From the NCBI RefSeq assembly GCF_016901575.1, contig NZ_JACJKQ010000006.1, positions 1 to 64,000 on the forward strand: a DNA stretch of 64,000 nucleotides, written 5' to 3'. The stretch's first letter is position 1. Each line of letters opens with the position of its first letter. Both the position numbers and the translations under genes were made by a program. Source of the stretch: Enorma phocaeensis. GTDB lineage: Bacteria > Actinomycetota > Coriobacteriia > Coriobacteriales > Coriobacteriaceae. The notes beneath the pieces are model-generated. The model did not search any database, was not told the DNA's origin, and was given only the letters and a program-made list of their open reading frames with translations. Of the stretch, positions 5,995 to 13,599 are shown in pieces.

Positions 5995-6660
5995 ATGAAC
6001 AAAAAGGCGAAGCGCCGTCTCATGGTTGTGGGCGGCATCGTGGTCATTGCCATGCTGGTCATCGTTGCCATCGCGGGCGCGGGCGGCTCGGCGACCTCTT
6101 TGACGGTGGGCGACGTCCTTACCGGTCAGTACGAAAGCAAAAAGGTGCAGGTTTCGGGCTCGGTGGTCGCCGATTCCATCACGAGCGAGGGCACGTCTGC
6201 CACCTTTGCCATCACGCCCGAGGAGAGCGATGGCTCAGAGACCCTGCAGGTGTCCTATGACGGGGCGCTGCCCGCCACGTTTGGCGCGGGCGTGGTCGCC
6301 ATTTGCACGGGGACCGTCGAGGACGGTACGCTCGCCTGCTCTGAGCTCGTGACCAAGTGCCCGTCCAAATATGAGAGCGCCGAGGGCTCGCTGACCGTCA
6401 AGGGCCTGCTCGATCAGGCGGATTCCCTCGGCGGGGACGAGGTGTCGGTGTGCGGCTACGTGTCCGGCCAGGTCAACTCGGTAGACGCCGACTATCGTTT
6501 CGTGCTGGAGTCGCAGGGCGAGACCATAGAGGTGAAATGGGACGGCGGCATGGACGAGGCCGTGGCCGACGGCACCGCGGTGGTGATCAAGGGGTCGCTC
6601 GGCTCCGACGGCTCCTTCGTGGCCTCCGAGCAGCCGGCGATCGACGAGTCGGTGGCCTAG
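5995..6660 (+). CDS. ccmE: Cytochrome c maturation heme chaperone CcmE, CxxxY type, extended
   Basis: CcmE takes heme from CcmC and passes it to the CcmF lyase outside the membrane. The protein has a positively charged start, one membrane anchor (residues about 9-28) and an OB-fold containing KVQVSGSVVADSI and LQVSYDG. The heme-binding residue of classical CcmE is His in HxxxY; here the site is Cys122-Pro-Ser-Lys-Tyr126, the rarer CxxxY form known from Desulfovibrio and archaea. At 221 residues it exceeds the usual 140-160, because residues about 130-215 look like a second OB-like half (EVSVCGYVSGQVNSV, IEVKWDGG). It opens the ccmE-F-A-B run. Confidence 0.85.
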   Translation: MNKKAKRRLMVVGGIVVIAMLVIVAIAGAGGSATSLTVGDVLTGQYESKKVQVSGSVVADSITSEGTSATFAITPEESDGSETLQVSYDGALPATFGAGVVAICTGTVEDGTLACSELVTKCPSKYESAEGSLTVKGLLDQADSLGGDEVSVCGYVSGQVNSVDADYRFVLESQGETIEVKWDGGMDEAVADGTAVVIKGSLGSDGSFVASEQPAIDESVA

Positions 6661-11980: not shown

Positions 11981-12057
11981 TGCGGGGTGGAGCAGTCTGG
12001 TAGCTCGCCGGGCTCATAACCCGGAGGTCGTAGGTTCAAATCCTGCCCCCGCGACCA
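11981..12057 (+). tRNA. Initiator tRNA-Met (CAT)
   Basis: A 77-base cloverleaf with encoded CCA and anticodon CAT. Initiator hallmarks are three consecutive G-C pairs in the anticodon stem (GGG CTCATAA CCC), a purine11-pyrimidine24 pair (A11-T24) in the D arm, and no Watson-Crick pair at 1-72. Here that position is T1-G72, a wobble rather than the C-A mismatch of E. coli. Confidence 0.96.
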
Positions 12058-12097: not shown

Positions 12098-12298
12098 GCA
12101 TGTGCACCTACCTGACAGTTCGCCGGCAATCTCTCATGGTCGCAGCGACGAGAAAGCTCTCCCATACTGCCCTGTAGCCATCGGAAGGCGGACGACTCGA
12201 TTTGTATGCATGGCGACCCCGGTGTGTTAAGCGTTGGTGTGGGGTTCGGATTCGTTTTCGGAGATAAAAACAAGGGCTTTTCACGTTGGAAGCGGAAG

Positions 12299-12508
12299 AA
12301 TATGGCCGTTTTTGCCAGATACGAACGATTGCGCCTGCCTGCAGAACGGCTCCTCGCGGAGCGAGGACAAAACAGCAGAAATCTAATGAATATAATTGGC
12401 AAACTTGATGTGATTAATGCATATTACTGTATGCCGACCCATCGGATGACGGAGGGTGGGGTCGCAGCTGTTGTTTAATCGTTCGTATCTGGCAAAAACG
12501 GCCAAATA
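12299..12508. mobile_element. MITE-like element with 28-bp terminal inverted repeats
   Basis: Bases 12303-12330 and 12477-12504 are perfect 28-bp inverted repeats (TGGCCGTTTTTGCCAGATAC and onward), 146 bases apart. The element is flanked on both sides by AATA (12299-12302 and 12505-12508), which looks like a target-site duplication. The interior has no gene; it includes a small stem (CGGCTCCTCGCGGAGCGAGG region) and is richer in A+T. No transposase is present. The rest of the gap up to 12767 shows nothing else I can support. Confidence 0.7.
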
Positions 12509-12767
12509 ATCAAAAACGAACGAAAAAAGCGTGCCCATGCGTTCAAGGTGTATCAAGTTGTATGAGCGTCTGGAGGGCAGATTGGCGGCTCCTGCGTAAG
12601 ATGACGGCGAGCGCGCAGTCATGTAGCGTGTCCACGGAGCGGGCCCTGCTCCAAATCTTGGAGACAGGACCCGCAAGCGGCTTGCAAGCAGAGGGAGGGC
12701 TGAAGAGGGCGTTGCGACGGCCCGCCCCCCTGCCGCGGCAGGAAAAGGCGGCAGGTCGGATTGTTTG

Positions 12768-13085
12768 CTAGGCGCGGCGAATGCGGACGGCGGTCCCCGA
12801 GGCAACGGTCATGATCATGCCTTCGAACGTTTCATAGCCCAGCGAGGCGCCGACCACCGCGTTTGCTCCAAGTTCCTCGGCGCGTTGCATCATCTCAGAG
12901 ATGACCTCTTCACGCGCACGCTGCATCTCGTCTTCATAGCCTGCGGAGCGGCCGCCAAACACGTTGCGGAGGCTTGCGCCCAGGTCGCGGAACATATTGA
13001 CGCCCATGACGGCCTCTCCGGCGACGATTCCGAGGTATTCGGTGACCTGATATCCAGAGATGTCGGGTGTGGTGGTTACGATCAT
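12768..13085 (-). CDS. YbjQ/UPF0145 family protein
   Basis: A 105-residue protein of the heavy-metal-binding-like YbjQ family. The family pattern is clear: [11 protein letters not shown] at the start, [16 protein letters not shown], then [22 protein letters not shown] and a C-terminal strand with GTAVRI. Members form small barrel pentamers; their cellular role is unsettled. The start at 13085 has AAAGGAG upstream; the frame extends about 30 codons further but with no SD there. Confidence 0.88.
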
Positions 13086-13599
13086 GATTCGCTCCTTTCG
13101 CGAGATAAGGACTTGGCATAGGGGCGGGCGGTGCTTGCACGTTCCTTGCTGTGACAGGAGGACGCGACGCATCGGGGGCTCTTGCGCGGCCGTCCTTGTG
13201 CAATGTAACAGGGCGGGCGCTTGGCGCAGCCGGATGTCCTCGTCCGATTAGCCCCAGTATACGGTGGCGGCGGTAAAGAAGGTCTCAAGGAAGCCTAAAG
13301 ACTGGCGGGTGGTAGAAAGAGGTCCGCAGCAGGACCTATGGTGGGTCTTATGGGACGCAGGCCGCATGTGTCCAAAGGCCCGGCCATGTGGCAGGGCCGA
13401 GCCGGGCGGATGGCCGGATCACGCCGGGGGCGATGCCGGGCGTTGTCGGGGAAGGTCGCATTTCGGCGTCAGCCATGGCGGCCGCCCTCCGCACGCCCCG
13501 CGTCGGGCAGGGGCGGCTGGATTGGGGCGCAAGGCTAGGGCGACGCGAAAGCGTGGGAAGGATTCGGGTATGCTGTGGGAAACGCTCCGGGAGGTTCGC
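13086..13599. other. Intergenic region between ybjQ and a small membrane gene
   Basis: Open frames here lack ribosome binding sites. A short stem AGGTCC/GGACCT lies at 13320-13337. TATGCT at 13569-13574 is a probable -10 for the downstream gene, and the same GGGTATGCTGT string precedes the SPFH gene at about 15292. I recognise no RNA family here. Confidence 0.4.

Follow-up and report, generated by a model that had tools for sequence, protein, structure and literature searches.

In enterobacteria, BIMEs and RIP elements are composed of inverted REPs arranged around an IHF site, and invertons, together with inversion systems of the Hin/Gin type, possess inverted sites around a short segment that carries an internal enhancer. 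REPINs are REP doublets that form hairpins and are accompanied by RAYT transposases. They have been described as inverted doublets which are extragenic, contain less conserved spacers and exhibit paired changes at their ends (PMC3116915). The small DNA elements reported here, one of which lies in a 64,000-nucleotide stretch of the Enorma phocaeensis genome (hereafter the window), resemble REPINs in being extragenic inverted doublets with a fixed spacing, a less conserved spacer and sequence populations within a genome (PMC3116915). However, their arms are 28 bp long rather than 16-mers over REPs, and they display a helix-phased spacing, a polar internal motif and outer A-tracts. With BIMEs and RIP elements they share two inverted units flanking a central motif, an intergenic location and a preference for 3' regions, although they lack REP palindromes, are longer, follow a specific helical lattice and occur in another phylum. 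Apparently, these elements constitute an undescribed family dispersed in gut Coriobacteria; a literature search, which mostly reached sources other than subscription journals, retrieved no account of such elements in this group.

The element in the window is short and non-coding and carries inverted repeats at both ends, its two 28-bp arms being exact reverse complements (28/28) with an outer span from arm to arm of 202 bp (12303-12504). An earlier note on this DNA had described these perfect ends as well as AATA directly beside each of them, and both descriptions are accurate. The features are listed below, R1 being a profile, built from the 56-bp arm sequence, that was used to search relatives.

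11981 to 12057, plus strand: tRNA-Met(CAT), upstream neighbour of the element
12278 to 12528, no strand assigned: whole unit of 251 bp from outer T-tract to outer A-tract, as predicted from homologues
12278 to 12281, minus strand: left outer A-tract (TTTT on the plus strand), a column conserved in A1/A2
12299 to 12302, plus strand: AATA abutting the left arm, judged coincidental (identical 4-mers in 1/37 elements)
12303 to 12330, plus strand: left arm, TGGCCGTTTTTGCCAGATACGAACGATT, matching profile R1 with E=1.9e-8
12369 to 12378, plus strand: candidate off-centre motif AAAACAGCAG, tentative (compare AAAACCGCAGG in G042 and Enorma)
12477 to 12504, minus strand: right arm, exact reverse complement of the left arm, matching profile R1 with E=1.2e-11
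12505 to 12508, plus strand: AATA next to the right arm, likewise regarded as a coincidence
12523 to 12528, plus strand: right outer A-tract GAAAAAA

The tRNA-Met(CAT) gene and a minus-strand gene at 12768-13172 place the element in a 3'-3' convergent region. According to crude gene calls, the ORFs across it show no coding signal, in agreement with the non-coding interior noted earlier, while the A+T-richness claimed for this interior is valid in relative terms only (50% G+C as compared to 65% for the 64-kb window). The repeat exceeds chance by a wide margin: the 15-bp outer part of the arm occurs twice in the window, where 0.11 occurrences are expected, and reversed-pattern controls of the 28-mer produced no matches genome-wide. 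GAAAA(A) tracts are located about 25 bp beyond each arm. Among the copies in this genome, a loose A-rich stretch directly outside the arms terminates in GAAAAA at a distance of about 18 bp, in both directions, and the outer tract is placed at +33-35 bp from the arm anchor; the left tract of the window is weaker than the tract of other arms. Because these outer GAAAAA tracts are conserved, the unit probably covers ~12278-12528 and the AATA pair falls inside it; the arms had thus been correctly reported, but the conserved unit is larger and reaches the outer A-tracts.

An arm search of the Enorma phocaeensis assembly containing the window (G000; 2.36 Mb, 108 contigs) revealed one lone arm and five further inverted pairs:

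C23:14956-15138, inverted pair
C45:59040-59241, inverted pair
C17:34952-35167, inverted pair
C16:16760-16982, inverted pair
C33:7409-7612, inverted pair

Other copies therefore exist, so that the refuting condition named in the earlier note (no other copies) does not apply, and a dispersed inverted-repeat family is indeed present; these copies, however, share their arms alone, since BLAST among the six pairs detected no similarity outside the arms and the interiors are unrelated. The lone arm (G000:C23:123152-123179; L070, ~6153-6180), for which no partner arm was found, possesses a short hairpin of its own and lies between a gene with a heavy-metal-associated (HMA) domain, whose stop codon it follows by 7 bp, and a tRNA-Gly ~125 bp further on. 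The remnant of an IS3-type transposase adjoins the C33 element (G000:C33:6698-7508, L065).

Among relatives, the R1 search identified eight inverted pairs in the close relative Candidatus Limicola stercorigallinarum (G001), six in Enorma massiliensis phI (G006), 13 in a further genome of genus g2 (G042), all three belonging to the Coriobacteriaceae, and at least three in G010, with related or multi-arm versions in G060, G018, G082, G023 and G063. The arm sequence differs from genome to genome and is near-uniform across the elements of one genome; by inspection, only the G042 arms are near-palindromic, those of Enorma and Limicola being not. The exact degenerate pattern of the window arm yielded 0 matches in GTDB contigs, and a three-mismatch pattern of the same arm matched in most relatives, where matches are largely due to chance or coding sequence with the exception of those in G010, G042 and G063. 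In IMG/VR contigs, three arm patterns (window, G001/G006 and G042) gave 0 matches, so that no link to phages was found. G063, from a different family within the order, contains clusters of the ATCGTGCATAAGTCGAAAAAA motif in both orientations (L040/L120), with arms recurring ~50 bp apart near a CIRCE-like sequence, TTAGCACTC...GAGTGCTAA. Inverted pairs in G060 (L087, L100), with arms of ~42 bp, TTAACCCCCT outside the arm and spans of 227 and 228 bp, look like a further subtype, and G018 (L102) harbours a 161-bp element whose inverted arms match over 53/64 bp (GTGGCCATTTTTGACAGCTTGGTGACAGCGAT core). Five of the 13 G042 elements are contained within 125 kb (C3: 954-1078 kb), and most elements of this genome occupy the side where the putative origin is located (the GC skew switches near 1.33 Mb), a pattern which is not significant.

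Measured between homologous anchors in 37 elements, the distances between arms are 139-141, 150-151, 161-163, 169-172, 183 and 190 bp, and they fit 140 + 10.5k bp with R=0.86 at 10.5 bp in 12 genome classes (Rayleigh p ~1.5e-4; permutation p<2e-4, with 0/5000 random sets reaching this R), distances that are not fully independent given that elements of one genome may have a common ancestry. The sizes from outer tract to outer tract, available for 33 elements, cluster at ~221, 232, 243, 253 and 264 bp, i.e. in the same steps. Inside the elements there is an asymmetric off-centre motif, AAAACCGCAGG in G042, Enorma and G010 and AAAACTGTCGGAAA in Limicola, which has been found in both orientations, is phased with respect to the arms (left R=0.73, right R=0.85) and follows the leading strand in 20/27 cases (p=0.02). 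In the genome that contains the window this motif is weak, being clear in some G000 elements only; in the window, AAAACAGCAG is positioned 50 bp from one anchor and 108 bp from the other, near the helical lattice, although it was picked after the fact and the allowed form of the motif was relaxed for G000. Interior columns align above the shuffled null in both G001 (3258 versus a maximum of 2674) and G042 (2470 versus 1922). The phased distances are suggestive of a protein-DNA complex on double-stranded DNA in which the sites follow the turns of the helix.

A crude codon-based gene call provided the context of neighbouring genes for 32 classifiable elements, 15 of which are located in convergent gaps (versus 16% of the control gaps, p=9e-5) and one in a divergent gap (versus 21% of the control gaps, p=0.01). 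Some intergenic positions are partly common to different genera: the site between carA and carB is occupied in G001, G006, G010 and G021 by elements whose arms differ from genome to genome, that between feoB and a nicotinamidase-like gene is common to G001 and G006, and a site 3' of prs to G006 and G000. In several relatives carA and carB are directly adjacent and element-free, but no single-copy target site was seen at these junctions. The earlier note had attributed the perfect ends to recent mobility or strong selection; since positions cross genera and the spacing of the arms is constrained, they are better explained by selection acting on the arms, and recent mobility is not supported.

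From the observed arms, spacing, polarity and distribution we infer, with a probability of roughly one half, that the element is a looped nucleoprotein site for a putative fast-evolving protein. This sequence-specific protein would bind both inverted 28-bp arms, outside each of which an A-tract follows at some 2-3 turns, while the DNA between them would be bent at the off-centre motif so as to bring the arms to the same helical face, where their bridging would fold some 220-265 bp into a loop or wrap. Arms, motif and helical spacing would be all that matters in such a complex, and the remaining interior sequence would drift; the specificity of the protein would shift between species, with all sites of a genome following, and the sites would be inherited at intergenic, preferentially 3'-3', positions, where they may now and then duplicate and invert. 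A free interior of fixed phase, a polar motif, outer A-tracts and a convergent 3' location all fit a double-stranded nucleoprotein loop, and the genome-wide replacement of arms suggests a partner that is sequence-specific and evolves rapidly. Candidate roles include a domain boundary, supercoil handling or the remnant of a recombination system, an architectural role being favoured because convergent 3' regions are enriched.

On the other hand, several observations argue against such a loop, among them the weakness of the motif in G000 and the limited independence of the distances. The arms of one pair match each other better than upon random re-pairing in G000 (p=0.0005), G006 (p=0.0005) and G042 (p=0.0015), though not significantly in G001 or G010, and simple protein binding needs no such matching. 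Moreover, contigs C13 and C22 of G001 carry paralogous elements whose interiors align in direct orientation (83/142, as compared to 44 in reverse and a shuffled maximum of 58) and whose outer flanks, up to the A-tracts, match in a crossed arrangement (24/25 and 20/25), from which it follows that one inner segment was inverted between the arms and that the A-tracts delimit the copied unit. These paralogues, within G001 alone, are the one strong candidate for both orientations; such a flip relative to the flanks suggests recombination at the arms and, combined with the matching within pairs, indicates that this has occurred. The association of motif orientation with the leading strand argues weakly against constant flipping.

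The main rival, which is a serious one even if we consider it unlikely, is a REPIN-like non-autonomous mobile population dependent on a putative transposase, with selection acting on the ends and on synapsis length and with the interior left free. It would have in common with REPINs the inverted doublets, less conserved spacers, paired end changes and extragenic location (PMC3116915), and it is favoured by the Limicola C13 and C22 elements, which share flanks up to the A-tracts as if a whole 253-bp unit had been copied, as well as by the carA-carB site, which is filled or empty depending on the species. Yet, as opposed to the situation in REPINs, the Y1 transposase (RAYT, PF01797) is absent from three carrier genomes, G042 with its 13 pairs, G021 and G063, on which ground RAYT was rejected as a general partner. 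A low copy number, positions common to different genera and the lack of a target duplication are further counterarguments, and helical phasing would be unexpected for a single-stranded hairpin intermediate. Finally, the arm search of G000 yielded no larger element that terminates in these arms, and all arm matches correspond to the six short pairs and the lone arm (in an assembly of 108 contigs, from which a copy may be missing); the active partner transposase with matching ends, as previously proposed, was accordingly not encountered in this search. Target duplications at the outer A-tracts were also considered and rejected, these being mostly 0-3 bp with nothing consistent.

Rather improbable is the notion of an inverton, in which a site-specific recombinase would act at the arms, with the motif serving as recombinational enhancer, and flip about 170 bp. 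Inverted sites, a phased and enhancer-like internal motif, arms matched within pairs and the one inferred inversion, that of the inner segment of C13 versus C22 relative to the flanks, are reminiscent of invertons and Hin/Gin systems, but searches for serine and tyrosine recombinases detected no common recombinase. No serine recombinase exceeded the cut-off in the carriers G001, G021 and G063, and a dedicated enzyme of this type was therefore rejected as a general partner; G021 and G063 encode just two tyrosine recombinases each, presumably XerC/XerD. An 11-6-11 tyrosine-recombinase site model was dropped, as the arms lack a consistent dyad across genera. In addition, the motif orientation is non-random and tends toward the direction of replication, the context consists of housekeeping 3' regions rather than of surface-gene promoters, with few or no promoter contexts overall, and inversion may also come about by passive (replication) template switching between the arms.

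The classical MITE reading, with AATA as a 4-bp target duplication and an active transposase as partner, is very improbable and already largely refuted. Such a MITE would likewise be short, dispersed and equipped with terminal inverted repeats, here perfect over 28 bp with AATA on both sides, and further arm copies are present in the genome; however, identical 4-mers abut the arms in 1/37 elements, that of the window (chance ~1%), which does not sustain AATA as a target duplication, the unit runs past AATA, the interiors are non-homologous, G000 contains no element with the same ends and positions cross genera. A structured RNA or terminator with the arm pair as closing stem is scarcely credible, for even though the whole window element gives a very stable RNA fold (z=-9.6) and some elements reside inside operons (carA-carB), this stability stems from the arms, the interiors taken alone giving no sign of RNA structure (mean z values of -0.65 and -0.18), tRNAs alone reach threshold in Rfam 15 for the window region and the loci tested, arm mismatches are mostly not G-U, and the spacing follows B-DNA turns.

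If the looped nucleoprotein site is taken as the preferred reading, a broader claim can tentatively be advanced, namely that these elements may represent Coriobacteriales-wide chromosomal DNA-architecture sites, about 6-13 per genome, which are phased and three-part, looped by a putative fast-evolving protein and kept at housekeeping intergenic loci across genera. The usual explanation for dispersed inverted repeats in bacteria is that they are remnants of mobile elements. What is conserved here, at many loci and in several genera, is a length in whole helix turns and not the interior, while the arms are replaced in each genome. Taken together, these features suggest that this common gut lineage possesses a sequence-specific system for chromosome folding or recombination which has not been described in it, and the arm sequence may be used as bait for the protein.
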